A stretch of 64,000 nucleotides of DNA, taken from contig NZ_UGQM01000001.1 in the NCBI RefSeq assembly GCF_900454025.1, forward strand, positions 4,960,001 through 5,024,000. Reading direction: 5' to 3'. Source of the DNA: Mycolicibacterium gilvum (GTDB lineage: Bacteria > Actinomycetota > Actinomycetes > Mycobacteriales > Mycobacteriaceae). Shown here in pieces: positions 10,282 through 55,247 of this stretch. The position numbers and the translations under genes were made by a program. Under the pieces are notes generated by a model that saw only the letters and a program-made list of their open reading frames with translations, ran no database searches and had not been told where the DNA came from. The number at the start of each line of letters is the position of its first letter. The first letter of the stretch is position 1.

Positions 10282-10420
10282 GAATCTGGAATACCGCCGC
10301 CGCGCCGCACGGTGGGCGGATTGACCAAACCCGTCATTTTGTCGGACCCCGTCGGCGCCTACGCGGCATACTTGCCGCACTGCGCCGCGTCCGACGGCAT
10401 CCGACGCGAGGTGACGATCT

Positions 10421-34686: not shown

Positions 34687-34772
34687 GGGTCGATCTCCGT
34701 TTCCTCAGGGGCTGGACGTCCAGATCGCAGGGTCATCGCGGGCGGAGCACCTGCGATGAAGGGCATGAGAGC

Positions 34773-34802: not shown

Positions 34803-35054
34803 GGACCAATCGCGAAGACAGGCGACCCGCAACCGTCCACGCAGGCTCTTCCTGCGAAAATCCGGGCACCGCGAATTAGAGCCGCCGACAATTTCCGGGG
34901 GTATGTCGCGCATCGCGGGGGTCGGGGATCCCGTTCGGCAATGCCGACTCCGGACCGGCGAGCGGGGCGGCACACGCTGACGACACGAGGTGTCCGACCC
35001 GACCTGGATAATGGGACAACGTGACTTCAGCCAGACTTCGAGGCGGCACCGCGC

Positions 35055-36704
35055 GTGACTGACGGACCGCTCATCGTGCAATCCGACAAGACCGTCCTGC
35101 TCGAGGTGGACCACGAGCAGGCCGGGGCAGCACGTGCGGCCATTGCGCCGTTCGCCGAGTTGGAGCGCGCACCCGAGCACATCCACACCTACCGCATCAC
35201 CCCGCTCGCCCTGTGGAACGCCCGCGCGGCGGGACACGACGCCGAGCAGGTCGTCGACGCCCTGGTGTCGTTCTCCCGCTATGCCGTCCCGCAGCCGCTG
35301 CTGGTCGACATCGTCGACACCATGGCGCGGTACGGCCGCCTGCAGTTGGTCAAGCATCCCGCCCACGGACTCACCCTGGTCAGCTTCGACCGGGCGGTGC
35401 TCGAAGAGGTGCTGCGGAACAAGAAGATCGCGCCGATGCTCGGCGCCCGCCTCGACGACGACACCGTCATCGTGCACAACAGTGAGCGGGGTCGGGTCAA
35501 GCAGATGCTTCTGAAGATCGGTTGGCCCGCCGAGGACCTGGCGGGTTACGTCGACGGTGAGGCACACCCGATCGCCCTGGAGCAGGACGGTTGGGAGCTG
35601 CGTGACTACCAGCAGATGGCCGCGGACTCGTTCTGGGACGGCGGTTCGGGCGTCGTGGTGCTGCCGTGCGGTGCCGGCAAGACGCTCGTCGGCGCCGCGG
35701 CGATGGCCAGGGCGGGCGCGACGACACTGATCCTCGTCACCAACACCGTCGCCGGACGCCAGTGGAAGCGCGAACTGATCGCCCGCACGACGCTGACCGA
35801 GGAGGAGATCGGCGAATATTCCGGCGAGCGCAAGGAGATTCGACCGGTCACCATCGCGACGTACCAGGTGATCACCCGCCGGACCAAGGGCGAGTACAAG
35901 CATCTGGAATTGTTCGACAGCCGTGACTGGGGCCTGATCGTCTACGACGAGGTGCACCTGTTACCGGCCCCGGTCTTCCGGATGACGGCCGACCTGCAGT
36001 CGAGACGACGGCTGGGGCTGACGGCGACGCTGATCCGCGAGGATGGGCGTGAGGGCGACGTGTTCTCGTTGATCGGCCCCAAGCGTTATGACGCGCCGTG
36101 GAAGGACATCGAGGCCCAGGGCTGGATCGCGCCGGCCGAATGTGTCGAGGTCCGGGTCACGATGACCGACAACGAGCGCATGCTGTACGCGACGGCCGAA
36201 CCCGAGGAGCGTTACAAGCTCTGCGCGACAGCCCACACCAAGATCGCGGTGGTGAAGTCGATCCTGGACCGCCATCCGAACGAGCCGACGCTGGTGATCG
36301 GCGCCTATCTCGACCAGCTCGACGAGCTGGGCACCGAGTTGAACGCCCCGGTGATCCAGGGGTCCACGAAGAATGCCGAGCGCGAGGAACTGTTCGACGG
36401 CTTCCGCCGGGGCGAGATCCGCACCCTCGTGGTCTCCAAGGTCGCGAACTTCTCCATCGATCTCCCGGAAGCCAGTGTTGCGGTGCAGGTTTCAGGGACG
36501 TTCGGCTCACGCCAGGAGGAGGCGCAACGCCTCGGCCGGTTGCTGCGCCCGAAGGCCGACGGCGGCGGGGCGGTGTTCTACTCGGTGGTGTCGCGCGACA
36601 GCCTCGACGCCGAGTACGCGGCACACCGGCAGCGCTTCCTCGCCGAGCAGGGCTACGGCTATGTCATCAAGGACGCCGACGACCTGCTCGGGCCGGCAAT
36701 CTGA
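35055..36704 (+). CDS. XPB/ERCC3-family DNA helicase
   Basis: A 549-aa superfamily-2 helicase like human XPB and M. tuberculosis Rv0861c (ercc3). It has an N-terminal damage-recognition-like domain (about 1-170), then helicase motifs: Q-motif region ELRDYQQMAADSF, Walker A PCGAGKT (204-210), DEVH box (298-301), GLTATLIREDGREGD (321-335) carrying the RED motif of XPB, and the C-terminal VSGTFGSRQEEAQRLGRLLRPK (motif VI). Unwinds DNA 3' to 5' in studied homologues; probably has a role in repair. GTG start with GAGGCGG upstream. Confidence 0.93.
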   Translation: MTDGPLIVQSDKTVLLEVDHEQAGAARAAIAPFAELERAPEHIHTYRITPLALWNARAAGHDAEQVVDALVSFSRYAVPQPLLVDIVDTMARYGRLQLVKHPAHGLTLVSFDRAVLEEVLRNKKIAPMLGARLDDDTVIVHNSERGRVKQMLLKIGWPAEDLAGYVDGEAHPIALEQDGWELRDYQQMAADSFWDGGSGVVVLPCGAGKTLVGAAAMARAGATTLILVTNTVAGRQWKRELIARTTLTEEEIGEYSGERKEIRPVTIATYQVITRRTKGEYKHLELFDSRDWGLIVYDEVHLLPAPVFRMTADLQSRRRLGLTATLIREDGREGDVFSLIGPKRYDAPWKDIEAQGWIAPAECVEVRVTMTDNERMLYATAEPEERYKLCATAHTKIAVVKSILDRHPNEPTLVIGAYLDQLDELGTELNAPVIQGSTKNAEREELFDGFRRGEIRTLVVSKVANFSIDLPEASVAVQVSGTFGSRQEEAQRLGRLLRPKADGGGAVFYSVVSRDSLDAEYAAHRQRFLAEQGYGYVIKDADDLLGPAI

Positions 36705-36713: not shown

Positions 36714-39700
36714 TCACAGGATGAGCGTGAGCAGGCCCGTCGTCGTGTTGCTGTAAACGCCCTGGAAGTCCCGGACAACCATGGTGATGGTGCGGCTCCC
36801 GAGCAGATTGATCCCTGTCTTCGAGAACCTGACCGACGCCATCGCTGCCTGGTACTGCGCAACAGTCCCCTCACCCGACAGGGTCAGTACTCCGTTTTCG
36901 TAGATGCCGGTGATGTCTCCGACCGCAGTGAACTCAAGCTTATCGACGCTTTGAACGTTGGTGATCGTGATGACCGCCTGATCCAGGAAGGAAGAATCAT
37001 CGACTATCACCACACCTGGGCTCACTACCTGCGCGCCCAGAAGGAGTAGACCTCCTCCGAGCGGGGCGGTGAGGATGGGTGCCGAGTTGGCCGTCTGCGT
37101 CACCAACGCTGTGGCGTTCGGGCTGGACGCACCCTGCGCATCGGTCGCGGTGATGGTGATGGTCTTGATCTCCGTCGAACCCGACGGGCCCGACGCGAAC
37201 GTCACCGACCGCAACAAGTCCTGATACGCCGCCGTACTCGCATCCCCCGTAAACGTCAGCACTCCCGTGACGCTGTCGTAGTTCCCGTCGATGCCGGCCA
37301 CAGCTGTGAAATCGAGAACGTCGCCCGTGGCGAAGTTATCGGTGATCGCCACCGACGCACCCTGCATCGTCGACGAGTCGAGGTCCAGGATCGTGAGCAA
37401 CGGGTTCACCGCCACCGCAGTGTTTCCCGCCGTGTAGATCGGACCGAGCAGGGTTGTGACAAGGGGCGCCAGGTTCACCGGCGCAGCGAGGACCGCCACC
37501 GCGACCGAGCCCGGCAGACTCGACGCGTTCTGCGTGTCGGTCACGGTGAACGACACCGTCTTGATGGTCGCCGGCGCTGCCGAACCCGTCGCAATCTTCA
37601 CCGATCGAAGCAACTGCTGGTAGTCGGCGACCGGCGCATCGCCGGTGAAGGTCAGCGTTCCGGTGTCGGCATCGAAGCTTCCGGAAATCCCTTGTTGTGC
37701 AGTGAAGCTCAACAGGTCACCGACACTGAAGTTACCCGTGATCTTCACCGTCGCCCCCTTGAGCATGCTCGAATCGAGATCGAGCAGACCGAGACCCGAG
37801 TCGACGTTCACTGCGGTGGATCCCGCCGTATAACTCAGGTTCACCCCTGACGTGATCACCAGCGGAGCGACATTCACAGGCGCGGAAACCACCGTCACGG
37901 CAACGAGGCCCGGACCACTGACCTTGCCGTCGGCGTCGGTCACCACGAACGAGACGCTCTTGATGGTGGCCAGTGCTCCGCTGCTGGTGGAGAAGGTCAC
38001 CGAGCGTAGGAGCTCTTGGTAGGCGCTCAGGGTGGCGGTACCTTCGAAGGTCAGCACGCCTGCGTCGTAGGTGCCGCTGATGCCGGATTGCGGAGTGAAT
38101 GCAAGAACCTCCCCTGATGCCGCACCGCCCACGATGGACACCACGGCTCGCGAGATGTTCGGCGAATCAGCATCCAGCAGAGTCAGATTCGGATCCAGTA
38201 CCGTTTCCGTCGCACCCGATGTGTAGGTCACGTTGGCCACCGATGTGACGACGACGGGGGTGGCGAGGACGGGTAGCGACACGACTGCCACTGCCACTGT
38301 CCCCGGCGTGCTGGTATTGAGCTCAGAGTCCGAAACTGTGAACAAAATGCTTCGAATTGACGTCAAGGCTGTGGTGCTCGTCGAGAACGCGACTGTTCGC
38401 AACAGCTGTTGGTACTGGCTCACTGTGGCATCGCCGTCGAAGGTGAGAACACCGGAGTCGTATCCTGCCGATACACCGTCGGGCAAGGCGCCCCAGGTCA
38501 GTGAATCGCCCTCGGCCGGGTTGCTGATTGTCACGGTTGCGCCCGACATCATCGACGAGTCTCCGTCGAGCACAACAATTCCGGAGTCGACCGGGGTGGA
38601 TGTACCACCAGCCGTGTGCGAGACACTGACGACTGATGTCAGAACGATCGGCGAGGCCGCAGAGAGGCCGATCACCGTCACCACGGTCGCGGCCGGCACC
38701 ACGCTGGGATTGCCATCGACATCAGTGACCGAGAAACTCACCGACTTCAACCCGGGAGCGGTCGAGGTCAACGTGACCGACTGCAGCAACTGCTGATACA
38801 CCGCGGCCGACGCCGCACCGGTGAACGTGACAGTGCCGGCACCCGGAGTCACGTCGAACCCGTCTGGAACATCGCCCCAGGACAGGACATCACCCTCGGC
38901 CGGGTCAGTGACCGTCACTGTCGCGGAGTCGATGTCGGAGTCCAGATCGGTGATCACCACGATCGGACTCACCGTGATCGGCTGTCCGGTAGTTCCCGCC
39001 GCGGCTGCGGCGACCAACACCACCGGAACGATCTGCACCTCAGGCAACCCGACCACCGTCACCACGGTCGCGGCCTGCACGACACTGGGATTGCCATCGA
39101 CATCAGTGACTGAGAAACTCACCGACTTCAACCCGGCAGCGGCCGAGGTCAGGGTGACCGACTGCAGCAGTTGCTGATACACCTGCGCTGATGCCGCACC
39201 GGTGAACGTCACTGATCCGGACTGAGCGTCGTACCCAACCGTCGACACACCCTGAGGCAACCCGGCCCAGGACAGCACGTCACCCTCGGCCGGGTCGACG
39301 ATCGTCACCGTGGCCGACTCGATGTCGGAATCCAGGTCGGTGATCACCACGATCGGACTGATCGTGATCGGTTGTCCTGCAACACCCGTCGCTACCGGCG
39401 ATACCACCACCAGCGGCGGCACCTCCACCGACAAACCGACCACAGTCACCACCGTGCCCGCAGGCACCACACTGGGATTGCCATCCACATCGGTGACCGA
39501 GAAACTCACCGACTTCAACCCCGCACCCGTCGACGTCAGAGTCACCGACTGCAGCAGTTGCTGATAGATGGCGGCCGACGCCGCACCGGTGAACGTCACG
39601 GTGCCGGCACCAGTGGTCACCTGGAACCCCTCGGGTACCTCGCCCCAGGACAGCACATCCCCATCAGTCGCGTCAGTGATCGACACGGTCGCGGACTCGA

Positions 39701-42700
39701 TGTCGGAATCCAGATCGGTGATCACCACGATGGGACTCACCGTGATCGGCTGTCCGGTAGCTCCGGCCGCGGCTGCGGCGACCAACACCACCGGAACGAT
39801 CTGCACCTCAGGCAGACCGACCACTGTCACCACGGTCGCGGCCTGCACGACACTGGGATTGCCATCCACATCAGTGACCGAGAAACTCACCGACTTCAAC
39901 CCCGCCGCCGTCGAGGTCAGGGTCACCGACTGCAGCAACTGCTGATAGATCGCCGCGGACGCTGCGCCCGTAAACGTCACCGACCCCGCACCCACCGACA
40001 CGCCAAACCCGTCCGGCACCTCGCCCCAGGACAGCACATCCCCATCAGCCGGGTCTGTGACCGTCACCGTGGCCGACTCGATGTCGGAATCCAAGTCGGT
40101 GATCACCACGATGGGACTCACCGTGATCGGCTGTCCGGCAACACCCGTCGCTACCGGCGACACCACCACCAACGGCGGCACCTCCACCGACAAACCGACC
40201 ACCGTCACCACCGTGCCCGCAGGCACCACACTGGGATTGCCATCCACATCGGTGACCGAAAAACTCACCGACTTCAACCCCGCACCCGTCGACGTCAGAG
40301 TCACCGACTGCAGCAGTTGCTGATAGATGGCGGCCGACGCCGCACCGGTGAACGTCACGGTGCCGGCACCAGTGGTCACCTGGAACCCCTCGGGTACCTC
40401 GCCCCAGGACAGCACATCCCCATCAGTCGCGTCAGTGATCGACACGGTCGCGGACTCGATGTCGGAATCCAGATCGGTGATCACCACGATGGGACTCACC
40501 GTGATCGGCTGTCCGGTAGCTCCGGCCGCGGCTGCGGCGACCAACACCACCGGAACGATCTGCACCTCAGGCAGACCGACCACTGTCACCACGGTCGCGG
40601 CCTGCACGACACTGGGATTGCCATCCACATCAGTGACCGAGAAACTCACCGACTTCAACCCCGCCGCCGTCGAGGTCAGGGTCACCGACTGCAGCAACTG
40701 CTGATAGATCGCCGCGGACGCTGCGCCCGTAAACGTCACCGACCCCGCACCCACCGACACGCCAAACCCGTCCGGCACCTCGCCCCAGGACAGCACATCC
40801 CCATCAGCCGGATCGGTGATCGTCACCGTGGCCGACTCGATGTCGGAATCCAAGTCGGTGATCACCACGATCGGACTCACCGTGATCGGCTGTCCGGCAA
40901 CACCCGTCGCTACCGGCGACACCACCACCAACGGCGGCACCTCCACCGACAAACCGACCACCGTCACCACCGTGCCCGCAGGCACCACACTGGGATTGCC
41001 ATCCACATCAGTGACCGAAAAACTCACCGACTTCAACCCCGCACCCGTCGACGTCAGAGTCACCGACTGCAGCAACTGCTGATACACCTGCGCGGACGCA
41101 GCACCGGTGAACGTCACCGACCCCGCACCCACAGACACGCCAAACCCGTCCGGCACCTCGCCCCAGGACAGCACATCCCCATCAGTCGCGTCAGTGATCG
41201 ACACGGTCGCGGACTCGATGTCGGAATCCAGATCGGTGATCACCACGATCGGACTGATCGTGATCGGTTGTCCGACAACACCCGTCGCTACCGGGGATAC
41301 CACCACCAGCGGCGGCACCTGAACCGACAAACCGACCACCGTCACCACAGTCGCGGCCTGCACCACGCTCGGATTGCCATCGACATCGGTGACCGAGAAA
41401 CTCGCCGACTTCAACCCGGGAGCGGTCGAGGTCAGGGTGACCGACTGCAGCAACTGCTGATAGATCGCGGCCGACGCCGCACCGGTGAACGTCACGGTGC
41501 CGGCACCCGTGGTCACGTCGAACCCCTCGGGTACCTCGCCCCAGGACAGCACATCACCGTCAGCCGGATCGGTGATCGACACCGTGGCCGACTCGATGTC
41601 GGAATCCAGATCCGTGATCACCACGATCGGACTGATCGTGATCGGCTGACCCACCACACCAGCAGCCACCGGCGACACCACCACCAGCGGCGGCACCTCC
41701 ACCGACAAACCGACCACCGTCACCACAGTCGCGGCCTGCACCACACTGGGATTGCCATCGACATCAGTGACCGAGAAGCTCACCGACTTCAACCCGGGAG
41801 CGGTCGAGGTCAGGGTGACCGACTGCAGCAACTGCTGATAGATCGCGGCCGACGCTGCGCCACTGAACGTGACAGTGCCGGCACCCGTGGTCACGTCGAA
41901 CCCGTCCGGCACCTCGCCCCAGGACAGCACATCCCCATCAGCCGGGTCTGTGACCGTCACCGTGGCCGACTCGATGTCGGAATCCAAGTCGGTGATCACC
42001 ACGATGGGACTCACCGTGATCGGCTGTCCGGCAACACCCGTCGCTACCGGCGACACCACCACCAACGGCGGCACCTCCACCGACAAACCGACCACCGTCA
42101 CCACCGTGCCCGCAGGCACCACACTGGGATTGCCATCCACATCGGTGACCGAAAAACTCACCGACTTCAACCCCGCACCCGTCGACGTCAGAGTCACCGA
42201 CTGCAGCAGTTGCTGATAGATGGCGGCCGACGCCGCACCGGTGAACGTCACGGTGCCGGCACCAGTGGTCACCTGGAACCCCTCGGGTACCTCGCCCCAG
42301 GACAGCACATCCCCATCAGTCGCGTCAGTGATCGACACGGTCGCGGACTCGATGTCGGAATCCAAGTCGGTGATCACCACGATGGGACTCACCGTGATCG
42401 GCTGTCCGGTAGCTCCGGCCGCGGCTGCGGCGACCAACACCACCGGAACGATCTGCACCTCAGGCAGACCGACCACTGTCACCACGGTCGCGGCCTGCAC
42501 GACACTGGGATTGCCATCCACATCAGTGACCGAGAAACTCACCGACTTCAACCCCGCCGCCGTCGAGGTCAGGGTCACCGACTGCAGCAACTGCTGATAG
42601 ATCGCCGCGGACGCTGCGCCCGTAAACGTCACCGACCCCGCACCCACCGACACGCCAAACCCGTCCGGCACCTCGCCCCAGGACAGCACGTCACCGTCAG

Positions 42701-45700
42701 CCGGATCGGTGATCGTCACCGTGGCCGACTCGATGTCGGAATCCAAGTCGGTGATCACCACGATCGGGCTCACCGTGATCGGCTGTCCGGCAACACCCGT
42801 CGCTACCGGCGACACCACCACCAACGGCGGCACCTCCACCGACAAACCGACCACCGTCACCACAGTCGCGGCCGGCACCACACTGGGATTGCCATCCACA
42901 TCAGTGACCGAAAAACTCACCGACTTCAACCCCGCACCCGTCGACGCCAGAGTCACCGACTGCAGCAACTGCTGATAGATCGCGGCCGACGCTGCGCCAC
43001 TGAACGTGACAGTGCCGGCACCCGTGGTCACGTCGAACCCGTCCGGCACCTCGCCCCAGGACAGCACATCACCGTCAGCCGGATCGGTGATCGTCACCGT
43101 GGCCGACTCGATGTCGGAATCCAGATCCGTGATCACCACGATGGGACTCACCGTGATCGGCTGACCCACCACACCAGCAGCCACCGGCGACACCACCACC
43201 AGCGGCGGCACCTGAACCGACAAACCGACCACCGTCACCACAGTCGCGGCCTGCACCACACTGGGATTGCCATCGACATCAGTGACCGAGAAGCTCACCG
43301 ACTTCAACCCGGGAGCGGTCGAGGTCAGGGTGACCGACTGCAGCAACTGCTGATAGATCGCGCCCGACGCTGCGCCCGTAAACGTCACCGACCCCGCACC
43401 CACAGACACGCCAAACCCGTCCGGCACCTCGCCCCAGGACAGCACATCACCCTCGGCCGGATCGGTGATCGACACGGTCGCGGACTCGATGTCGGAATCC
43501 AGATCCGTGATCACCACGATCGGACTGATCGTCACCGGCTGACCCACCACACCAGCAGCCACCGGCGACACCACCACCAACGGCGGCACCTCCACCGACA
43601 AACCGACCACCGTCACCACCGTGCCCGCAGGCACCACACTGGGATTGCCATCCACATCAGTGACCGAAAAACTCACCGACTTCAACCCCGCACCCGTCGA
43701 CGTCAGAGTCACCGACTGCAGCAACTGCTGATACACCTGCGCGGACGCAGCACCGGTGAACGTCACCGACCCCGCACCCACAGACACGCCAAACCCGTCC
43801 GGCACCTCGCCCCAGGACAGCACATCCCCATCAGTCGCGTCAGTGATCGACACGGTCGCGGACTCGATGTCGGAATCCAGATCGGTGATCACCACGATCG
43901 GACTGATCGTGATCGGTTGTCCGACAACACCCGTCGCTACCGGCGACACCACCACCAACGGCGGCACCTGAACCGACAAACCGACCACCGTCACCACAGT
44001 CGCGGCCTGCACCACGCTCGGATTGCCATCGACATCGGTGACCGAGAAACTCGCCGACTTCAACCCGGGAGCGGTCGAGGTCAGGGTGACCGACTGCAGC
44101 AACTGCTGATAGATCGCGGCCGACGCCGCACCGGTGAACGTCACGGTGCCGGCACCCGTGGTCACGTCGAACCCCTCGGGTACCTCGCCCCAGGACAGCA
44201 CATCACCGTCAGCCGGATCGGTGATCGACACCGTGGCCGACTCGATGTCGGAATCCAGATCCGTGATCACCACGATCGGACTGATCGTGATCGGCTGACC
44301 CACCACACCAGCAGCCACCGGCGACACCACCACCAGCGGCGGCACCTCCACCGACAAACCGACCACCGTCACCACAGTCGCGGCCTGCACCACACTGGGA
44401 TTGCCATCGACATCAGTGACCGAGAAGCTCACCGACTTCAACCCGGGAGCGGTCGAGGTCAGGGTGACCGACTGCAGCAACTGCTGATAGATCGCGCCCG
44501 ACGCCGCGCCCGTAAACGTCACCGACCCCGCACCCACAGACACGCCAAACCCGTCCGGCACCTCGCCCCAGGACAGGACATCACCCTCGGCCGGATCGGT
44601 GATCGACACGGTCGCGGACTCGATGTCGGAATCCAGATCCGTGATCACCACGATCGGACTGATCGTCACCGGCTGACCCACCACACCAGCAGCCACCGGC
44701 GACACCACCACCAGCGGCGGCACCTCCACCGACAAACCGACCACCGTCACCACAGTCGCGGCCTGCACCACACTGGGATTGCCATCGACATCAGTGACCG
44801 AGAAGCTCACCGACTTCAACCCGGGAGCGGTCGAGGTCAGGGTGACCGACTGCAGCAACTGCTGATAGATCGCGGCCGACGCTGCGCCACTGAACGTGAC
44901 AGTGCCGGCACCCGTGGTCACGTCGAACCCGTCCGGCACCTCGCCCCAGGACAGCACATCCCCATCAGCCGGATCGGTGATCGTCACCGTGGCCGACTCG
45001 ATGTCGGAATCCAGATCCGTGATCACCACAATCGGACTCACCGTGATCGGCTGACCCACCACACCAGCAGCCACCGGCGACACCACCACCAACGGCGGCA
45101 CCTCCACCGACAAACCGACCACCGTCACCACAGTCGCGGCGGGCACCACACTGGGATTGCCATCCACATCGGCAACGGCAAACGACACCGACTTCAGCCC
45201 CGCGCCCGTCGAGGTCAACGTGACCGACTGCAGGAGCTGCTGATACACCTGCGCTGACGCCGCGCCGGTGAACGTCACCGACCCCACGCCGACAGACACC
45301 CCAAGGTCGTCGGGGATCTCGCCCCAAGACAGGACATCACCGTCAGCCGGGTCAGTGATCGTCACCGTGGCCGACTCGATGTCGGAATCCAGATCCGTGA
45401 TCACCACGATCGGACTCACCGTGATCGGCTGGCCCGCCAAACCCGTCGCTACCGGGGACACCACCACCAACGGCGGCACCTCCACTGGTAGGCCGACCAC
45501 CGTGACGACCGTGCCCGCAGGCACCACACTGGGATTGCCATCCACATCGGTAACCGAGAAACTCACCGACTTCAAACCCGCCGCCGTCGACGTCAGAGTC
45601 ACCGACTGCAGCAACTGCTGATACACCGCGGCCGACGCCGCACCGGTGAACGTCACCGACCCCACGCCGACAGACACCCCAAGGTCGTCGGGGATCTCGC

Positions 45701-48700
45701 CCCAAGACAGGACATCACCGTCAGCCGGGTCAGTGATCGTCACCGTGGCCGACTCGATGTCGGAATCCAGATCCGTGATCACCACGATCGGACTCACCGT
45801 GATCGGCTGGCCCGCCAAACCCGTCGCTACCGGGGACACCACCACCAACGGCGGCACCTCCACTGGTAGGCCGACCACCGTGACGACCGTGCCCGCAGGC
45901 ACCACACTGGGATTGCCATCCACATCGGTAACCGAGAAACTCACCGACTTCAACCCGGCACCCGTCGAGGTCAAGGTCACCGACTGCAGCAGTTGCTGAT
46001 AGATCGCTGCCGACGCCGCACCGGTGAACGTCACCAACCCGGACTCAGCATCGAACCCGACCGTTGACACACCCTGAGGAAGCCCATCCCAGGACAGCAC
46101 ATCACCGTCAGCCGGATCGGTGATCGTCACCGTGGCCGACTCGAGATCCGAGTCCAGGTCGGTGATCACTACGATCGGGGTGATCGTGATCGGCTGTCCT
46201 GCAACACCCGTCGCTACCGGGGACACCACCACCAACGGCGGCACCTCGACGGGTAGGCCGACCACCGTGACGACCGTGCCCGCCGGCACCACACTGGGAT
46301 TGCCATCCACATCAGTGACCGAGAAACTCACCGACTTCAAACCCGCCGCCGTCGACGTCAGAGTCACCGACTGCAGCAACTGCTGATAGATCGCCGCCGA
46401 CGCCGCGCCACTGAACGTCACGGTGCCGGCACCAGTGCTGACCTGGAACCCGTCCGGCACCTCGCCCCAGGACAGCACGTCACCCTCAGCCGGGTCAGTG
46501 ATCGACACGGTCGCGGACTCGATGTCGGAATCCAGATCGGTGATCACCACGATCGGACTCACCGTAATCGGCTGTCCCGCAACACCCGTCGCTACCGGCG
46601 ACACCACGACCAAGGGCGGCACCTCGACGGGGAGACCGACCACCGTGACGACCGTGCCCGCCGGCACCACACTGGGATTGCCATCGACATCGGTGACCGA
46701 AAAACTCACCGACTTCAACCCCGCACCCGTCGAGGTCAACCTGACCGACTGCAGCAGTTGCTGATAGATCGCGGCCGATGCTGCACCGGTGAACGTCACC
46801 GACCCGGACTCGGCGTCGAACCCGACCGTCGACACACCCTGAGGAAGCCCATCCCAGGACAGCACATCACCGTCAGCCGGATCGGTGATCGCCACCGTGG
46901 CCGACTCGAGATCCGAGTCCAGGTCGGTGATCACCACGATCGGGGTGATCGTGATCGGCTGTCCCGCAACACCCGTCGCTACCGGGGACACCACGACCAA
47001 GGGCGGCACCTCGACGGGGAGACCGACCACCGTGACGACCGTGCCCGCCGGCACCACACTGGGATTGCCATCGGCATCGGTGACCGAGAAGCTGACCGAC
47101 TTCAAACCGGCACCCGTCGAGGTCAGAGTCACCGACTGCAGCAACTGCTGATAGATCGCGGCCGATGCTGCGCCCGTGAACGTCACCGACCCGGACTCAG
47201 CATCGAACCCGACCGTTGACACACCCTGAGGAAGCCCACCCCAGGACAGCACATCACCGTCAGCCGGGTCGACGATCGTCACCGTGGCCGACTCGAGGTC
47301 GGAATCCAGATCAGTGATCACGACAATCGGACTCACCGTGATCGCCTGGCCGGCAGTCCCCGTCGCTACCGGCGACACCACCACCAACGGCGGCACCTCC
47401 ACCGACAAACCGACCACCGTGACGACCGTGCCCGCCGGCACCACGCTCGGATTGCCATCCACATCGGCAACGACAAACGACACCGACTTCAACCCAGCAC
47501 TGGGCGAAGTCAATGTCACCGACTGCAGCAGTTGCTGATAGATCGCCGCTGACGCCGCGCCACTGAACGTCACGGTGCCGGCACCAGTGCTGACCTGGAA
47601 CCCGTCCGGCACCTCGCCCCAGGACAGCACGTCACCCTCGGCCGGGTCAGTGATCGACACGGTCGCGGACTCGATGTCGGAATCCAGATCCGTGATCACC
47701 ACGATCGGGGTGATCGTGATCGGCTGTCCTGCAACACCCGTCGCTACCGGCGACACCACCACCAGCGGCGGCACCTCGACGGGAAGACCGACCACCGTGA
47801 CGACCGTGCCCGCAGGCACCACACTGGGATTGCCATCCACATCGGTAACCGAGAAACTCACCGACTTCAACCCGGCACCCGTCGAGGTCAACGTGACCGA
47901 CTGCAGCAGTTGCTGATAGATCGCTGCCGACGCCGCACCGGTGAACGTCACCGACCCGGACTCGGCATCGAACCCCACCGTCGACACACCCTGAGGCAAC
48001 CCGCCCCAGGACAGCACATCCCCATCAGTCGGATCAGTGATCGACACGGTCGCGGACTCGATGTCGGAGTCCAGGTCGGTGATGATCACGATCGGACTGA
48101 TCGTGATCGGTTGTCCGGCAACACCCGTCGCTACCGGCGACACCACCACCAGCGGCGGCACCTCCACCGACAAACCGACCACCGTCACGACCGTGCCCGC
48201 AGGCACCACACTGGGATTGCCATCCACATCAGTGACCGAAAAACTCACCGACTTCAACCCCGCCGCAGTCGAGGTCAACATGACCGACTGCAGAAGCTGT
48301 TGATACACCTGCGCTGACGCCACACCGGTGAACGTGACAGTGCCGGACTCGGCGTCGAACCCGACCGTTGACACACCCTGAGGCAACCCGCCCCAGGACG
48401 GCACGTCACCCTCGGCCGGGTCGACGATCGTCACCGTGGCCGACTCGATGTCGGAATCCAGGTCGGTGATGATCACGATCGGACTCACCGTGATCGGCTG
48501 ACCCACCACACCAGCAGCCACCGGCGACACCACCACCAGCGGCGGCACCTCCACCGACAAACCGACCACCGTCACGACCGTGCCCGCAGGCACCACATTG
48601 GGATTGCCATCCACATCAGTGACCGAAAAACTCACCGACTTCAACCCCGCCGCAGTCGAGGTCAACATGACCGACTGCAGAAGCTGTTGATACACCTGCG

Positions 48701-51700
48701 CTGACGCCGCACCGGTGAACGTGACAGTGCCGGACTCGGCGTCGAACCCGACCGTTGACACACCCTGAGGCAACCCGCCCCAGGACAGCACGTCACCCTC
48801 GGCCGGGTCGACGATCGTCACCGTGGCCGACTCGATGTCGGAATCCAGGTCGGTGATCACCACGATCGGAGTCACCGTGATCGGTTGTCCTGCAACACCC
48901 GTCGCTACCGGGGATACCACCACCAGCGGCGGCACCTCCACCGACAAACCGACCACAGTCACCACCGTGCCCGCAGGCACCACACTGGGATTGCCATCGA
49001 CATCAGTGACCGAAAAACTCACGGACTTCAACCCCGCCGCAGTCGAGGTCAACGTGACCGACTGCAGGAGCTGCTGATACACCTGCGCGGACGCAGCACC
49101 GGTGAACGTTACCGACCCCGCGCCGACAGACACCCCAAGGTCGTCGGGGATCTCGCCCCAGGACAGCACATCACCTTCGGCCGGATCGGCGATCGTCACC
49201 GTCGCCGACTCGATGTCGGAATCCAGATCCGTGATGATCACGATCGGACTGATCGTGATCGGTTGTCCCGCAACACCAGTAGCCACCGGGGTCACCACAA
49301 TCAACGGCGGCACCTCGACGGGGAGACCGACCACCGTGACGACCGTGCCCGCAGGCACCACGCTCGGATTGCCATCCACGTCGGTAACGGCAAACAACAC
49401 CGACTTCAAACCGGCACTGGCCGAGGTCAGGGTGACGGACTCCAGGAGTTGCTGATAGATCGCGGCCGATGCTGCGCCACTGAACGTGACAGTGCCGGCA
49501 CCAGTGGTCACGTCGAACCCGTCCGGCACCTCACCCCAAGACAGGACATCACCGTCAGCCGCGTCGGTGATCGTCACCGTCGCGGACTCGATGTCGGAAT
49601 CCACATCCGTGATGATCACGATCGGACTGATCGTAATTGGTTGTCCCGCAACACCAGTGGCTACCGGGGTCACCACCACCAGCGGCGGCACCTCGACGGG
49701 AAGACCGACCACGGTCACCACCGTGCCCGCAGGCACCACACTGGGATTGCCATCCACATCAGTGACCGAAAAACTCACCGACTTCAACCCGGCACTGGCC
49801 GACGTCAACCTGACCGACTGCAAGATCTGCTGATACACCGCCGCCGACGCCGCACCAGAGAACGTCACCGACCCCGCACCGACAGACACCCCAAACCCGT
49901 CCGGCACCTCACCCCAAGACAGGACATCACCGTCGGCCGCGTCGGTGATCGTCACCGTCGCGGACTCGATGTCGGAATCCACATCCGTGATGATCACGAT
50001 CGGACTGATCGTAATCGGTTGTCCCGCAACACCAGTGGCCACCGGGGTCACCACCACCAAGGGCGGCACCTCGACGGGAAGACCGACCACCGTCACCACC
50101 GTGCCCGCAGGCACCACACTGGGATTGCCATCCACATCAGTGACCGAAAAACTCACCGACTTCAACCCGGCACTGGCCGAGGTCAACCTGACGGACTGCA
50201 AGATCTGCTGATACACCGCCGCCGACGCCGCACCAGAGAACGTCACCGACCCGGCACCAGTGGTCACGTCGAACACGTCCGGCACCTCACCCCAAGACAG
50301 CACGTCACCGTCAGTCGCGTCGGCGATCGTCACCGTGGCCGACTCGATGTCGGAATCCACATCCGTGATCACCACAATCGGGCTGATCGTGATCGGTTGT
50401 CCCGCAACACCAGTAGCCACCGGGGTCACCACCACCAAGGGCGGCACCTCAACGGGAAGACCGACCACCGTCACCACCGTGCCCGCAGGCACCACACTGG
50501 GATTGCCATCCACATCGGCAACGGCAAACGACACCAACTTCAACCCCGCACCCGTCGAGGTCAACCTGACGGACTGCAAGATCTGCTGATACACCGCCGC
50601 CGACGCCGCACCAGAGAACGTCACCGACCCGGCACCCGTGGTCACGTCGAACCCGTCCGGCACCTCACCCCAAGACAGGACATCACCATCGGCCGGGTCA
50701 GTGATCGTCACCGTGGCCGACTCGAGGTCCGAATCCAGATCAGTGATCACCACAATCGGACTGATCGTGATCGGTTGTCCCGCAACACCGGTGGCCACCG
50801 GGGACACCACCACCAACGGCGGCACCTCCACCGGCAGACCGACGACGGTGATCACGGCGATCGTCGGCAGACTCGTCTTGTTCTGATCATCCACAACTCG
50901 GAACGACACCGTCTTGATCGCCGCGGTCGGCGTGGTCAGGGTGACCGAGGCCAACAGGTCTTGATACGCCGCCAGCGTCGCAGCCCCCGTAAAAGTGAGG
51001 ACGCCGTTCGAATAGTTGGCGGTCACTCCGCTCGGCAATGAACCGTACTCAAGGATCTGACCCGGCCCTGGATCATCGAGCGTGACAGTGGCTGAGGTGA
51101 GTTCCTCTGAATCCAGGTCGGTGATTACCACTATGGGGCTGACCGTGATGGGTTCGCCGGCGATCCCGGCCCCCACCGGGGTCACGACCACGACCGGCGC
51201 CAACTCCACGATGGGATTGACTGTGACCGGAATCGTCAGCGTCACCTCGTCGGGTTCGGCGAGGCCGCTGGCGCGTCGAAGAAAGTGGAGCACCCCTTGA
51301 ATGACGCCCAGGAGACCCTTCAGATGCTCAGAAGAGTCGCTGATGACGACCGTGAAACTGTCGATGAGTGGCGCACCCGTGACCACCGTCGTGGGGGTGT
51401 ACACGAAGTTTCCGGTGATCGGATCTCGCAGCACGACACCATGTTCGGGCTGAGTGATCTTGAAAGTCAGTGGATCACCATTGGGATCGACCGCATTGAG
51501 GTCTACAACTACCTGGCCGGTGAGAAGCTGCTGCGCGGTGACCGGGCCCCACTCCGGACTCTCGTTGAAGAAGGTATGAGTGATTTGGCGCCGAACCCAG
51601 GCCAGCAGTCCATCGAACCACGGCGCTCGTGCCGGTGTTGCCGGATCGTTGAGCGGAGCAAGAACGCTGGAAACAACGGCGGACAGGACGTCGACGGCTC

Positions 51701-52454
51701 CGATATCCTGTGTGACCTCGAGCTCGGGCGAGGCGGTCGGGACGACGGTGTCACTGCCGCCTTCTGCGTCAGCGATAGGGACGACGGTTTCGGTAACGAC
51801 AGTCGCAGGTTCGGCGCCGACGTCGATGACCGCCGCCTCGGCGACTGACGATGTCGACTCGTCGGCCTGTTCGGTTGTGGCATCGGTAACCGGTGCCGGA
51901 GCATCCGGAGCACCGTCCGATCCGACTGTTTCTACCGATGGCGCCGGGGCCTCTTCAGGGGAATCCGTGTCCGGTAGCTGCGGAGCGCTTTCGCCATCCT
52001 CGACGTCCTCGCCTTCACCGGCCGAGCCGTCCCCGTCTCCAATGGAGACGTCGTCTTCGGACTCTGAGGGGTCGGCCTCCGTAGCATCTTCTTGTCCGTC
52101 TCCCGGCGAGTCAGAGCCTGACTCTTCCTTCCCGGCTTTCGGTTTTGCACCGACTCGGGTCTCGCCGTTCGCTTCGCCGTCATTGGTGGCATTCGCGGCC
52201 GAAGACGTCGCGGACTCGGTATCCGCGGAGGCCACCCCTGATCCATTGGCGATGGCGAATCCGACCCCGAGCGATATCGCGAGGGCACCGACTCGACCGA
52301 TGTGCAGGCCGGTTGCCGAACGCTTACGCGCATGCTTCGCCGACCTCGACGGACCGTTCTTGTCGACCAGCTCGCGTGCCGCCCAGATACCGGCGTCAAC
52401 GGGTGTGTCGCCGCTCCTGGAGTAGACGCGGTGACGGGTGGGGGTTGCGCACAT
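36714..52454 (-). CDS. Giant secreted repeat protein, 5246 aa, adhesin-like
   Basis: Start at ATG 52454: GGAGGA lies 5 nt upstream, and the 50 codons above it look non-coding. A long basic n-region (1-52) precedes the signal core IGRVGALAISLGVGFAIANGSGVASA (cleavage near 77). An acidic Asp/Glu/Ser linker runs to about 285. A shared module (about 290-415) has LAWVRRQITHTFFNESP and DPNGDPLTFKI. Then come 38 tandem repeats of about 127 residues to the C-terminus. A typical repeat has VPPLVVVSPVATGVAGQPI, VVITDLDSDIESATVTI, VLSWGEVPDGF, FTGAASAAIYQQLLQSV and FSVTDVDGNPSVV. The DLDSD and DVDGN stretches look like calcium sites. Repeats 2-33 are near identical; 1 and 34-38 are diverged. The mature region shows almost no Cys and no sortase motif. 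Predicted stiff extracellular adhesin or matrix fibre. Confidence 0.85.
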   Translation of the reverse strand: MCATPTRHRVYSRSGDTPVDAGIWAARELVDKNGPSRSAKHARKRSATGLHIGRVGALAISLGVGFAIANGSGVASADTESATSSAANATNDGEANGETRVGAKPKAGKEESGSDSPGDGQEDATEADPSESEDDVSIGDGDGSAGEGEDVEDGESAPQLPDTDSPEEAPAPSVETVGSDGAPDAPAPVTDATTEQADESTSSVAEAAVIDVGAEPATVVTETVVPIADAEGGSDTVVPTASPELEVTQDIGAVDVLSAVVSSVLAPLNDPATPARAPWFDGLLAWVRRQITHTFFNESPEWGPVTAQQLLTGQVVVDLNAVDPNGDPLTFKITQPEHGVVLRDPITGNFVYTPTTVVTGAPLIDSFTVVISDSSEHLKGLLGVIQGVLHFLRRASGLAEPDEVTLTIPVTVNPIVELAPVVVVTPVGAGIAGEPITVSPIVVITDLDSEELTSATVTLDDPGPGQILEYGSLPSGVTANYSNGVLTFTGAATLAAYQDLLASVTLTTPTAAIKTVSFRVVDDQNKTSLPTIAVITVVGLPVEVPPLVVVSPVATGVAGQPITISPIVVITDLDSDLESATVTITDPADGDVLSWGEVPDGFDVTTGAGSVTFSGAASAAVYQQILQSVRLTSTGAGLKLVSFAVADVDGNPSVVPAGTVVTVVGLPVEVPPLVVVTPVATGVAGQPITISPIVVITDVDSDIESATVTIADATDGDVLSWGEVPDVFDVTTGAGSVTFSGAASAAVYQQILQSVRLTSASAGLKSVSFSVTDVDGNPSVVPAGTVVTVVGLPVEVPPLVVVTPVATGVAGQPITISPIVIITDVDSDIESATVTITDAADGDVLSWGEVPDGFGVSVGAGSVTFSGAASAAVYQQILQSVRLTSASAGLKSVSFSVTDVDGNPSVVPAGTVVTVVGLPVEVPPLVVVTPVATGVAGQPITISPIVIITDVDSDIESATVTITDAADGDVLSWGEVPDGFDVTTGAGTVTFSGAASAAIYQQLLESVTLTSASAGLKSVLFAVTDVDGNPSVVPAGTVVTVVGLPVEVPPLIVVTPVATGVAGQPITISPIVIITDLDSDIESATVTIADPAEGDVLSWGEIPDDLGVSVGAGSVTFTGAASAQVYQQLLQSVTLTSTAAGLKSVSFSVTDVDGNPSVVPAGTVVTVVGLSVEVPPLVVVSPVATGVAGQPITVTPIVVITDLDSDIESATVTIVDPAEGDVLSWGGLPQGVSTVGFDAESGTVTFTGAASAQVYQQLLQSVMLTSTAAGLKSVSFSVTDVDGNPNVVPAGTVVTVVGLSVEVPPLVVVSPVAAGVVGQPITVSPIVIITDLDSDIESATVTIVDPAEGDVPSWGGLPQGVSTVGFDAESGTVTFTGVASAQVYQQLLQSVMLTSTAAGLKSVSFSVTDVDGNPSVVPAGTVVTVVGLSVEVPPLVVVSPVATGVAGQPITISPIVIITDLDSDIESATVSITDPTDGDVLSWGGLPQGVSTVGFDAESGSVTFTGAASAAIYQQLLQSVTLTSTGAGLKSVSFSVTDVDGNPSVVPAGTVVTVVGLPVEVPPLVVVSPVATGVAGQPITITPIVVITDLDSDIESATVSITDPAEGDVLSWGEVPDGFQVSTGAGTVTFSGAASAAIYQQLLQSVTLTSPSAGLKSVSFVVADVDGNPSVVPAGTVVTVVGLSVEVPPLVVVSPVATGTAGQAITVSPIVVITDLDSDLESATVTIVDPADGDVLSWGGLPQGVSTVGFDAESGSVTFTGAASAAIYQQLLQSVTLTSTGAGLKSVSFSVTDADGNPSVVPAGTVVTVVGLPVEVPPLVVVSPVATGVAGQPITITPIVVITDLDSDLESATVAITDPADGDVLSWDGLPQGVSTVGFDAESGSVTFTGAASAAIYQQLLQSVRLTSTGAGLKSVSFSVTDVDGNPSVVPAGTVVTVVGLPVEVPPLVVVSPVATGVAGQPITVSPIVVITDLDSDIESATVSITDPAEGDVLSWGEVPDGFQVSTGAGTVTFSGAASAAIYQQLLQSVTLTSTAAGLKSVSFSVTDVDGNPSVVPAGTVVTVVGLPVEVPPLVVVSPVATGVAGQPITITPIVVITDLDSDLESATVTITDPADGDVLSWDGLPQGVSTVGFDAESGLVTFTGAASAAIYQQLLQSVTLTSTGAGLKSVSFSVTDVDGNPSVVPAGTVVTVVGLPVEVPPLVVVSPVATGLAGQPITVSPIVVITDLDSDIESATVTITDPADGDVLSWGEIPDDLGVSVGVGSVTFTGAASAAVYQQLLQSVTLTSTAAGLKSVSFSVTDVDGNPSVVPAGTVVTVVGLPVEVPPLVVVSPVATGLAGQPITVSPIVVITDLDSDIESATVTITDPADGDVLSWGEIPDDLGVSVGVGSVTFTGAASAQVYQQLLQSVTLTSTGAGLKSVSFAVADVDGNPSVVPAATVVTVVGLSVEVPPLVVVSPVAAGVVGQPITVSPIVVITDLDSDIESATVTITDPADGDVLSWGEVPDGFDVTTGAGTVTFSGAASAAIYQQLLQSVTLTSTAPGLKSVSFSVTDVDGNPSVVQAATVVTVVGLSVEVPPLVVVSPVAAGVVGQPVTISPIVVITDLDSDIESATVSITDPAEGDVLSWGEVPDGFGVSVGAGSVTFTGAASGAIYQQLLQSVTLTSTAPGLKSVSFSVTDVDGNPSVVQAATVVTVVGLSVEVPPLVVVSPVAAGVVGQPITISPIVVITDLDSDIESATVSITDPADGDVLSWGEVPEGFDVTTGAGTVTFTGAASAAIYQQLLQSVTLTSTAPGLKSASFSVTDVDGNPSVVQAATVVTVVGLSVQVPPLVVVSPVATGVVGQPITISPIVVITDLDSDIESATVSITDATDGDVLSWGEVPDGFGVSVGAGSVTFTGAASAQVYQQLLQSVTLTSTGAGLKSVSFSVTDVDGNPSVVPAGTVVTVVGLSVEVPPLVVVSPVAAGVVGQPVTISPIVVITDLDSDIESATVSITDPAEGDVLSWGEVPDGFGVSVGAGSVTFTGAASGAIYQQLLQSVTLTSTAPGLKSVSFSVTDVDGNPSVVQAATVVTVVGLSVQVPPLVVVSPVAAGVVGQPITVSPIVVITDLDSDIESATVTITDPADGDVLSWGEVPDGFDVTTGAGTVTFSGAASAAIYQQLLQSVTLASTGAGLKSVSFSVTDVDGNPSVVPAATVVTVVGLSVEVPPLVVVSPVATGVAGQPITVSPIVVITDLDSDIESATVTITDPADGDVLSWGEVPDGFGVSVGAGSVTFTGAASAAIYQQLLQSVTLTSTAAGLKSVSFSVTDVDGNPSVVQAATVVTVVGLPEVQIVPVVLVAAAAAGATGQPITVSPIVVITDLDSDIESATVSITDATDGDVLSWGEVPEGFQVTTGAGTVTFTGAASAAIYQQLLQSVTLTSTGAGLKSVSFSVTDVDGNPSVVPAGTVVTVVGLSVEVPPLVVVSPVATGVAGQPITVSPIVVITDLDSDIESATVTVTDPADGDVLSWGEVPDGFDVTTGAGTVTFSGAASAAIYQQLLQSVTLTSTAPGLKSVSFSVTDVDGNPSVVQAATVVTVVGLSVEVPPLVVVSPVAAGVVGQPITISPIVVITDLDSDIESATVSITDPADGDVLSWGEVPEGFDVTTGAGTVTFTGAASAAIYQQLLQSVTLTSTAPGLKSASFSVTDVDGNPSVVQAATVVTVVGLSVQVPPLVVVSPVATGVVGQPITISPIVVITDLDSDIESATVSITDATDGDVLSWGEVPDGFGVSVGAGSVTFTGAASAQVYQQLLQSVTLTSTGAGLKSVSFSVTDVDGNPSVVPAGTVVTVVGLSVEVPPLVVVSPVATGVAGQPITVSPIVVITDLDSDIESATVTITDPADGDVLSWGEVPDGFGVSVGAGSVTFTGAASAAIYQQLLQSVTLTSTAAGLKSVSFSVTDVDGNPSVVQAATVVTVVGLPEVQIVPVVLVAAAAAGATGQPITVSPIVVITDLDSDIESATVSITDATDGDVLSWGEVPEGFQVTTGAGTVTFTGAASAAIYQQLLQSVTLTSTGAGLKSVSFSVTDVDGNPSVVPAGTVVTVVGLSVEVPPLVVVSPVATGVAGQPITVSPIVVITDLDSDIESATVTVTDPADGDVLSWGEVPDGFGVSVGAGSVTFTGAASAAIYQQLLQSVTLTSTAAGLKSVSFSVTDVDGNPSVVQAATVVTVVGLPEVQIVPVVLVAAAAAGATGQPITVSPIVVITDLDSDIESATVSITDATDGDVLSWGEVPEGFQVTTGAGTVTFTGAASAAIYQQLLQSVTLTSTGAGLKSVSFSVTDVDGNPSVVPAGTVVTVVGLSVEVPPLVVVSPVATGVAGQPITISPIVVITDLDSDIESATVTIVDPAEGDVLSWAGLPQGVSTVGYDAQSGSVTFTGAASAQVYQQLLQSVTLTSAAAGLKSVSFSVTDVDGNPSVVQAATVVTVVGLPEVQIVPVVLVAAAAAGTTGQPITVSPIVVITDLDSDIDSATVTVTDPAEGDVLSWGDVPDGFDVTPGAGTVTFTGAASAAVYQQLLQSVTLTSTAPGLKSVSFSVTDVDGNPSVVPAATVVTVIGLSAASPIVLTSVVSVSHTAGGTSTPVDSGIVVLDGDSSMMSGATVTISNPAEGDSLTWGALPDGVSAGYDSGVLTFDGDATVSQYQQLLRTVAFSTSTTALTSIRSILFTVSDSELNTSTPGTVAVAVVSLPVLATPVVVTSVANVTYTSGATETVLDPNLTLLDADSPNISRAVVSIVGGAASGEVLAFTPQSGISGTYDAGVLTFEGTATLSAYQELLRSVTFSTSSGALATIKSVSFVVTDADGKVSGPGLVAVTVVSAPVNVAPLVITSGVNLSYTAGSTAVNVDSGLGLLDLDSSMLKGATVKITGNFSVGDLLSFTAQQGISGSFDADTGTLTFTGDAPVADYQQLLRSVKIATGSAAPATIKTVSFTVTDTQNASSLPGSVAVAVLAAPVNLAPLVTTLLGPIYTAGNTAVAVNPLLTILDLDSSTMQGASVAITDNFATGDVLDFTAVAGIDGNYDSVTGVLTFTGDASTAAYQDLLRSVTFASGPSGSTEIKTITITATDAQGASSPNATALVTQTANSAPILTAPLGGGLLLLGAQVVSPGVVIVDDSSFLDQAVITITNVQSVDKLEFTAVGDITGIYENGVLTLSGEGTVAQYQAAMASVRFSKTGINLLGSRTITMVVRDFQGVYSNTTTGLLTLIL
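36717..51209 (-). repeat. Array of 38 tandem repeats, about 381 bp each
   Basis: I counted 38 units by the recurring end motif VVTVVGL and its variants. Period is 378-387 bp. Exact or near-exact DNA copies recur at distances of 378, 759, 1893 and 2649 bp, all whole multiples of the repeat. Every copy carries variants of GGTGATCACC, a perfect 10-bp palindrome, in the ITDLDSD codons. Copy number in an assembly may be unreliable because of this identity. Confidence 0.9.
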
Positions 52455-53761: not shown

Positions 53762-54754
53762 CTACGCCAGCGCGGGCATGATCTCGCGCTCGAACAGTTC
53801 GATGCTCGACCTGTCGTAGGCGGCTTCCGGGAAGTAGCAGATCACGTACTCGCAGCCGAGATCACGCAGGCGTTGCAGGCTCTCCACGAGTTGTTCGGGT
53901 GTACCGCTGCCGGCCTGGGGGGAGTTCATCGCGTTGAGCATCGCGTCGGCAGCGGCCTCCCCGGTCAGGTCACTGATCCGAGAGCGCACACGGGCGAGCC
54001 GGTCTTCGACGTCGGCCTCCGACGTGCCGACGACGGCATTGATGTTGGCCGACCGCACGATCGCGTCGAAATCGGTGCCGACGTCCTTACAGTGTTCAGC
54101 CAGCACCCGTGACTTGTGTTCGAAGCCGTCTGGCTCCGAGGTGAAGTTGGTGTACTGCGCGTACTTCGCCGCGATGCGCAGCGTGACCTTCTCGCCGCCG
54201 CCCGCGATCCAGAGCGGCAGCCCACCGTCCTGCAGCGGACGCGGAGCCACGATCGCACCGTCGACCTGGTAGTGCTTGCCGTCGAAGGACACCACGCCGT
54301 CGCGCCAGGCGTCGCGCATGATCTGGACCCCTTCGTCGAGCCGGGCAAGGCGCGTCCCGGCCGACGGGAACCCGTATCCGTAAGCGCGCCACTCGTGTTC
54401 GTACCATCCGCCGCCGATGCCCATCTGGACCCGGCCACCCGAGATCACGTCGGCCGTCGCGGCGACCTTCGCCAGGTAGGCCGGGTTGCGGTAGCTCATC
54501 GCCGTGCACATCTGCCCCAGCTTGATCCGCGACGTCGTCGCCGCATACGCCGACATCAGCGACCAGGCCTCGTGGGTGGCCTCGTCTGTCGGCACGGGCA
54601 CGGTGTGGAAGTGGTCGTAGACCCACAGGGAGTCCCACGCATCGCCGGCGTCGACGTACGTCGCGAGATCGCTCATCACCCGCCATTGGTCTCGCGGATC
54701 GATTCCGACCAGGTCGAGTCGCCAGCCTTGCGGGATGAAGAGTCCGAAGCGCAT
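53762..54754 (-). CDS. LLM-class F420-dependent oxidoreductase
   Basis: A 330-aa luciferase-like TIM-barrel protein. It starts MRFGLFIPQGWRLDLVGIDPRDQWRVMSDLATYVD, and includes DSLWVYDHFHTVPVP, RIKLGQMCTAMSYRNPAYLAKVAATADVISGGRVQMGIGGGWYEHEWRAYG and PLQDGGLPLWIAGGGEKVTLRIAAKYAQYTNF. These are typical of the mycobacterial F420-dependent group. The substrate cannot be read. The ORF extends 81 codons upstream, but ATG 54754 fits the family start. It is divergent from the neighbouring PNPOx-like gene with 67 bp between. Confidence 0.88.
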   Translation of the reverse strand: MRFGLFIPQGWRLDLVGIDPRDQWRVMSDLATYVDAGDAWDSLWVYDHFHTVPVPTDEATHEAWSLMSAYAATTSRIKLGQMCTAMSYRNPAYLAKVAATADVISGGRVQMGIGGGWYEHEWRAYGYGFPSAGTRLARLDEGVQIMRDAWRDGVVSFDGKHYQVDGAIVAPRPLQDGGLPLWIAGGGEKVTLRIAAKYAQYTNFTSEPDGFEHKSRVLAEHCKDVGTDFDAIVRSANINAVVGTSEADVEDRLARVRSRISDLTGEAAADAMLNAMNSPQAGSGTPEQLVESLQRLRDLGCEYVICYFPEAAYDRSSIELFEREIMPALA

Positions 54755-54821
54755 GAAACCGACTCTAGGTGGCGCTGCCGATCTGCGAAACGTGTCGCCG
54801 CGGCTGGGTAGCGTGCGAGTC

Positions 54822-55247
54822 ATGCCTCTGTCCAAACCGGAACGCGAGGAGTTCCTCGCCGAACCGCACATTGCCGCGCTGTCCGTGGCCAACGGCGCCG
54901 ACCGCGGCCCGCTGACCGTACCCATCTGGTACCAGTACTCCCCCGGTGGCGAACTCTGGTTCACCACCGGCGCCGGTTCCCGCAAGCACCGGCTCATCGA
55001 GGCCGCCGGGTTCGTCTCGCTGATGGTCGAGCGGGTCGAACCCAGCGTGCGCTACGTCGCAGTCGACGGTCCTGTGCTGCGCATCGAGCCCGGCACCGAT
55101 GACCAACTCGTCGAGATGACCAGGCGCTATCTTCCGCCCGAGAAAGTCGACGGCTACCTCGAGTTCGCGCGCCGCGAGCACGGCGAGAGCGTGGCCGTCT
55201 TCGTCGAGGCGGCGCACTGGCTGTCCTCGGACCTCGGCTCGCTCTAG
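54822..55247 (+). CDS. PNPOx-like split-barrel flavin/F420-binding protein
   Basis: A 141-aa protein of the pyridoxamine-oxidase-like fold: PEREEFLAEPHIAALSVANGADRGPLTVPIWYQYSPGGELWFTTGAGSRKHRLIEAAGFVSLMVERVEPSVRYVAVDGPV. In mycobacteria this group includes F420- and FMN-binding reductases; the true PdxH is elsewhere in this window. The stop overlaps the convergent acyl-CoA ligase stop by 4 bp. Its position beside an LLM-class gene suggests F420 use (inference). Confidence 0.82.
   Translation: MPLSKPEREEFLAEPHIAALSVANGADRGPLTVPIWYQYSPGGELWFTTGAGSRKHRLIEAAGFVSLMVERVEPSVRYVAVDGPVLRIEPGTDDQLVEMTRRYLPPEKVDGYLEFARREHGESVAVFVEAAHWLSSDLGSL

Follow-up and report, generated by a model that had tools for sequence, protein, structure and literature searches.

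How a mycobacterial protein that carries neither a PE nor a PPE domain arrives at the cell surface and is retained there is, in our reading of the field, an open question. It is raised by a locus of Mycolicibacterium gilvum, which we analysed in a window of 64,000 nucleotides (contig NZ_UGQM01000001.1, positions 4,960,001 to 5,024,000) to which the coordinates below refer. Here a single minus-strand gene (36714..52454), defined by the open reading frame (ORF) listing, a hidden Markov model (HMM) of its repeats and its orthologues, runs from an ATG at 52454 to a stop at 36714 and encodes a giant protein of 5246 residues. Coordinates and length are those of the original prediction, made from the letters of this DNA, which had left the strand unstated. 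The stretch that precedes the repeats, hereafter the leader, is shared with other proteins of the same genome, and this shared leader is our main finding and is more interesting than the giant itself. With a signal-peptide signature carried by at least 16 proteins of one genome, and with cargoes that suit an extracellular role, the leader family makes the question of surface display testable by simple fusion.

The leader of the giant comprises the signal peptide, acidic linker and N-terminal module that had been predicted, and all three were recovered on the minus strand. By eye, residues 1-77 (52224..52454) form a signal peptide with a long n-region (MCATPTRHR...), the signature IGRVGALAISLGVG and an apparent cleavage site between ASA and D. 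The frame has an alternative upstream opening at 52604; the ATG at 52454 comes after GGAGGAACACT, and an MCA...RH start stands at the equivalent position in several orthologues. Residue 2 is the sole cysteine of the protein. By composition, residues 78-252 (51699..52223) are a low-complexity acidic linker, with 46 acidic and 4 basic residues among the 175 scored. The module that follows, a helix and an immunoglobulin-like (Ig) domain at residues 253-417 (51204..51698), was delimited by Pfam, alignment and a structural model, and matches Pfam Big_9 (E=8.3e-9). Its helix lies around LLAWVRRQITHTFF (residues 278-295, 51570..51623), where the model has a helix at its positions 21-38 and the alignment is conserved; a second helix, placed by the model (its positions 124-139) and the hydrophobic moment, is inserted in the Ig domain (residues 381-396, 51267..51314).

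This description is fitted by the giant, with its signature signal peptide, acidic linker and helix plus Big_9 module with insert, and the signature extends well beyond it. A DNA pattern for the signature (GR[VIL]G[AG][LF]A-like) occurs at 20 places in the source genome, versus 3 for the reversed pattern, and 16 of the 20 hits lie at N-termini, resemble signal peptides and lead into acidic or Ser/Thr-rich stretches. A search with the module found 14 places in this genome, one of them on a small contig (a partial second copy) and one an ORF with two. Two further leader proteins lie in the window itself: a 1046-residue paralogue (31546..34686, minus; module search and HMM), which has the leader and module of the giant and five HMM repeats, and a GH1 glycosidase (7648..10518, minus; Pfam and pattern) behind the same signal-peptide signature and module. 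Over the whole genome, the cargoes of the module are as varied as GH1, Big_9 arrays, M4 thermolysin, glucose/sorbosone dehydrogenase and GH18 with CBM2 and Calx-beta; for its metalloprotease-like cargoes, matrixin was reached only under the cut-off. The thermolysin, the metalloprotease-like proteins and a 582-residue protein carry the module behind signal peptides other than the signature type. Behind signature signal peptides stand GH1 and GH18 with the cellulose-binding CBM2, and in other proteins Calx-beta, an S15-type hydrolase, a type I phosphodiesterase, a beta-propeller, DUF4185 and a PE-PPE domain. The enzymes (GH1, GH18 with CBM2, thermolysin) fit an extracellular place. As separate observations, three metalloprotease-like module ORFs, one with two modules, are adjacent at C1:6102000-6113500 of the source genome (L026/L032), and a partial second copy (L030, C11:13000-16000) exists of the 582-residue-frame module protein at C1:4117230.

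The linker is likewise a recurrent element. In 56 of 84 module ORFs it has a median length of 188 residues (interquartile 172-219, range 126-267) and a median net charge of -43 (range -71 to -1); among the 28 others, the 11 inspected comprise seven near-GRVGxLA variants and four related ARxG forms. An order-wide sample of 249 genomes gave matches to the signal-peptide model in 24: genomes of the genus, 17 in number, have between 2 and 25 places, and the seven from other families have a single weak one (E 2.5e-5 to 7e-4); in this sample the signature was found in no other genus of the family of the window organism, which we take to be the mycolic-acid family of GTDB. Fifteen genomes of the genus match the module strongly (E<1e-20), and the signature is present in 14 of them; in G065, G102 and G122 the signature occurs where no strong module does. 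Four more genera of the family (g9, g11, g20, g29) also have the module and its helix; a candidate fifth, g2 (G178, L086), was dropped, its helix part being unconvincing. The module model matches 39 genomes of 246 (31 belong to other families), and the restriction of the helix module to the family is a sample result among the matches listed. The helix module is absent from the 13 best outside matches inspected, all of which start at model position 30 or later. We also rejected the module as a general actinobacterial domain, because two early-start outside matches (G675, G623) lack the helix module and are other proteins. Our search of open-licence PMC papers, weak evidence of absence in itself, found no literature on the leader or the fibre.

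What the leader precedes in the giant is an array of 38 copies of about 126 residues (residues 417-5235), the predicted number being confirmed with an HMM built from the repeats. Thirty-three close copies score 171-228 and form the core (residues 417-4598, 38661..51206, minus; HMM, Tandem Repeats Finder, repeat identity, dN/dS), with a net charge of -368; five diverged C-terminal copies, scoring 26-66, make up the remainder (residues 4599-5246, 36717..38660, minus; HMM, model, tip mapping). AlphaFold models of residues 258-668 (27 sequences; mean pLDDT, the predicted local distance difference test, 83.6; pTM, the predicted template modelling score, 0.50) and of the C-terminal 385 residues (16 sequences, some of the shorter-paralogue type; 82.6 and 0.53) have pTM values at which inter-domain angles are not fixed. 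The underlying alignments hold 25 of 29 candidate relatives plus two window rows (A3; L135, L140, L146 and L147 excluded) and 15 of 19 plus one window row (A4; L138, L140, L147 and L151 excluded for broken or N-holding ends). The first model has two helices and then a beta-sandwich whose last strands are preceded by an inserted helix; the two repeats that follow are beta-sandwiches as well, each containing a short helix. In the second, the last strand of the last repeat is the end of the protein, with nothing beyond it. Foldseek against the PDB placed an endo-fucoidan hydrolase first for the former, followed mostly by cadherin ectodomains (E 1e-10 to 2e-8, with a low TMq of 0.16-0.35 for a multi-domain chain), and returned antigen I/II C-domains, PrgB and cadherins for the latter; SiiE and GhpA were further matches. 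The repeats are accordingly predicted to be cadherin-like beta-sandwiches, the fold that the original prediction had proposed to check by modelling, and its "secreted fibre" is, judged from sequence and model, probably a secreted repeat fibre of that predicted fold. Seven single repeats compared with Pfam and NCBIfam gave no curated-family match above the cut-off. Matches of Pfam RPOC_hybrid, DUF4567 and HMA to the repeat region are artefacts, the cut-off being passed only when summed over repeats, with no stretch of their own, and NCBIfam DfrA18 is another (no stretches, far under the cut-off). In 458 repeats drawn from 41 ORFs, with weighting by gene, four aspartates are conserved, at repeat positions 29 (0.91), 31 (0.76), 48 (0.87) and 104 (0.95), the first two of which form a DxD; calcium binding by the repeats is thus possible.

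That the giant repeat protein is real follows from the DNA of its repeats, although the count of 38 copies comes from one assembly. Tandem Repeats Finder reports a 378-bp unit in 32 copies. Of the 33 core repeats, 22 have a length of exactly 126 residues; these have 21 distinct DNA sequences, and their codons give a mean nonsynonymous divergence (dN) of 0.164 against a mean synonymous divergence (dS) of 0.549, a ratio of 0.30 over 231 pairs; the longest exact internal repeat of the gene is 551 bp (offsets 360-8999 searched). Since the copies differ in DNA and the ratio is 0.30, the frame is that of a protein under selection rather than a chance one, and an origin in misassembly is improbable. 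A plus-strand ORF of 1961 residues inside the repeats (39372-45257) was taken as mechanical: the repeat HMM matched only two ORFs of the window, the giant and the 1046-residue paralogue, both on the minus strand.

The gene lies between two conserved neighbours identified by Pfam scan and in orthologous loci, an XPB/ERCC3-type helicase (35055..36704, plus) and, on the opposite side, a luciferase-like monooxygenase (53762..54997, minus). An ORF at 34683-35957 (minus) was dropped as a gene, having no Pfam match and being overlapped by the XPB gene on the opposite strand. Orthologues at the same locus have 27 (G085), 23 (G019) and 13 (G055) repeats, and one has 19 and 7 on two contigs, one adjoining each neighbour gene (G141). 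A 42-repeat orthologue adjoins XPB (G516) and a 31-repeat orthologue the luciferase-like gene (G509); a stretch with 16 repeats (G133) holds no marker gene. Repeat number thus ranges from 13 to 42 at one locus, with 38 in the window, and the gene offers a natural series of stalk lengths. Mean identity of core repeats is 0.86 between neighbours, 0.66 between copies 31 apart and 0.53 in the single pair 32 apart, and each of the 17 other ORFs that have nine or more repeats shows higher repeat identity within itself than to the window gene. Such within-gene similarity amounts to concerted turnover. The last five repeats behave otherwise: of 16 relatives, five (G516, G085, L128, L153_1, L143) have a single counterpart of each in unchanged order, L139 has four of the five, L133 and L150 have two each, and the other eight none or one. 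In near relatives, therefore, the stalk varies in length and the tip is constant, a pattern that fails for distant relatives.

The original prediction had called such a protein unusual for a mycobacterium, a statement that does not hold within the genus: with at most 14 candidates scored per genome, the repeat model matches 36 of 297 sampled genus genomes, of which 20 have at least 12 matches and 16 have 2 to 8, the latter number fitting the shorter paralogue. Relatives were found with a single pattern, [DW][GAT][VL]LAWVRR, which matched 142 stretches, 87 of them confirmed; the best 80 were kept and represent 79 loci. Their titles read Mycobacterium or Mycolicibacterium, bar one uncultured Mycobacteriaceae, and the nearest, M. 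iranicum AT2.18, has 90% identity in the module. In the class-wide sample the repeat occurs in 2 of 246 genomes, the source genome and one distant genome (G603), and two tip repeats find relatives at 34-45% identity in five plasmid records, of Indioceanicola, Hymenobacter, Paenibacillus, Burkholderia and Rhizobium. By its sequence, then, the repeat appears to be of a widespread bacterial kind. It may have been acquired by transfer, for which the G+C content at third codon positions (GC3) can be cited, being 0.78 in the giant gene, 0.88 in the paralogue and 0.91 in fadB. The distant genome, of another family, has a 1615-residue frame with eight repeat matches (G603:C287:5161-8433), for which gene transfer is possible.

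How might such a chain be held? The absences of a sortase and of a visible RTX retention system, both part of the original prediction, persisted in directed searches. Neither sortase (PF04203) nor LapG (PF06035) has a match in the source genome; run over 14 genomes as a control, the same searches found the former in 3 and the latter in one, Caulobacter. The giant has no RTX (GGxGxDx-type), LPXTG or lipobox motif. With moderate confidence we favour a cell-surface adhesive fibre, with export through Sec and retention by the N-terminal module. The signature signal peptide would direct the chain to Sec, the long acidic linker would cross the cell wall, and the helix and Ig module, with its amphipathic insert, would fix the N-terminus at the outer, mycolic acid membrane or within it; the 33 core repeats would then form an acidic stalk of evolving length, carrying outwards a five-repeat tip that may bind neighbours, matrix or particles. 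Cadherin domains measure about 4.5 nm, from which we estimate a fibre of about 170 nm for 38 domains. We infer Sec use, membrane anchoring, surface exposure, stiffness and adhesion alike, and the weakest step is the idea that linker and module position the chain so that it spans the wall and meets the mycomembrane. More broadly, and only tentatively, the leader could define a second mycobacterial display route beside type VII secretion, consisting of the signature signal peptide, an acidic wall-spanning linker and an amphipathic helix plus Ig plug inserting into the mycomembrane, and serving many cargoes. If so, it would present anything from enzymes to a 38-domain fibre whose length evolves by repeat turnover while its tip is fixed.

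Several results weigh against the anchored fibre. The module matches 7 of the 16 signature proteins and was not found in the fetched stretch of the other nine. Its main helix is not amphipathic (p=0.32), and the insert helix is so to a modest degree in the giant (p=0.035 versus shuffles) and at p from 0.0002 to 0.018 in three relatives, the segments having been picked by hand and the insert taken from four sequences. No outer-membrane exporter was recognised by Pfam among the 12 neighbouring ORFs scanned. Cadherin calcium motifs go by the names DxNDN, LDRE and DxD; the calcium sites of the original prediction find partial support in the conserved DxD and in Asp 48 and 104, and none in the canonical cadherin linkers, the giant lacking any DxNDN or LDRE-like motif. 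Ten of the 16 relatives have fewer than four of the five tip repeats in register; among the five good cases, L143 and L153_1 are fragments that start inside the array.

Apparent cleavage of the signal peptide, moreover, leaves no known anchor, and release of the protein is a simple alternative: it may act in the biofilm matrix as an acidic scaffold that perhaps binds calcium, like the rhizobial cadherin-like Rap proteins. We consider this a possible, if rather doubtful, account: the missing anchor motif, the strongly negative stalk and the likeness of the repeats to those on plasmids of other bacteria suit it, whereas a leader that is long after its signal peptide, conserved across species and common to other cargoes would seem to exceed what export needs. 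The module might instead be a recognition tag for a dedicated outer-membrane translocator and no anchor itself. Its position before unrelated cargoes and its restriction to one family within our samples would agree with that, but no candidate translocator was identified and the nine signature proteins without the module speak against a tag, which we regard as unlikely. Quite improbable is a structural element kept within the envelope, or a decaying, functionless repeat-rich frame. Here the lower GC3 of the gene can be cited, as can two genomes in which no giant separates the conserved neighbours and just the shorter paralogue, beyond XPB, is present (G027, G082), and a third with five repeat matches only (G099). 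On the matter of a frame broken in independent assemblies, which the original prediction had raised, the relatives are divided. G096/L151 has a split frame and L138, L140 and L147 have interrupted ones, which also counts against our favoured fibre; in others the frame runs unbroken for 3307, 3948, 4657 and 5800 residues (stop to stop), and M. aurum has a complete one of 3128 residues by the same measure (L144). These long frames and the low dN/dS among repeats argue against decay, and a fibre of the estimated length would be too long for a wall of a few tens of nm.

The anchored fibre may be set beside known systems. RTX/LapA-type adhesins and SiiE of Gram-negative bacteria likewise use long Ig/cadherin-like repeat arrays as an extender. 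By general account, and in part after PMC12153261, these proteins are secreted by type I systems through C-terminal signals, and the LapA type has an N-terminal retention module cleaved by LapG. The giant differs in its signal peptide, its lack of an RTX motif and a genome without a LapG match. Sortase-anchored proteins carry an LPXTG-type signal, which the giant lacks, as its genome lacks a sortase match. A signal-peptide signature, YSIRK, marks a set of cell-wall anchored surface proteins in Staphylococcus aureus (PMC13104630); the leader resembles it in the logic of a signature only, the motif being different and no sortase being matched. Mobiluncus mulieris has a giant Ig-repeat adhesin too, with 51 repeats in 7651 residues (PMC10619420); the mycobacterial giant differs in having residue 2 as its only cysteine. 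PE/PPE proteins are alike in joining a conserved N-terminal domain to varied surface cargo, and the PPE domain of PPE17 has been used to display other proteins (PMC3586085). They lack a classical signal peptide (PMC6819658), whereas the giant has one and its first 500 residues match Big_9 only. One leader protein does carry a PE-PPE domain, PF08237. We rejected this cargo as proof of a leader swap, since such domains are known without PE/PPE parts, and in Rhodococcus and Nocardia (PMC3037379). The protein in question (L225:1465-2661; C1:1065645 of the source genome) has the PE-PPE hydrolase domain behind the signature and no PE or PPE domain. Another (L220, C1:470260) has a glycine-rich stretch of PGRS-like appearance and Calx-beta behind its signature signal peptide.
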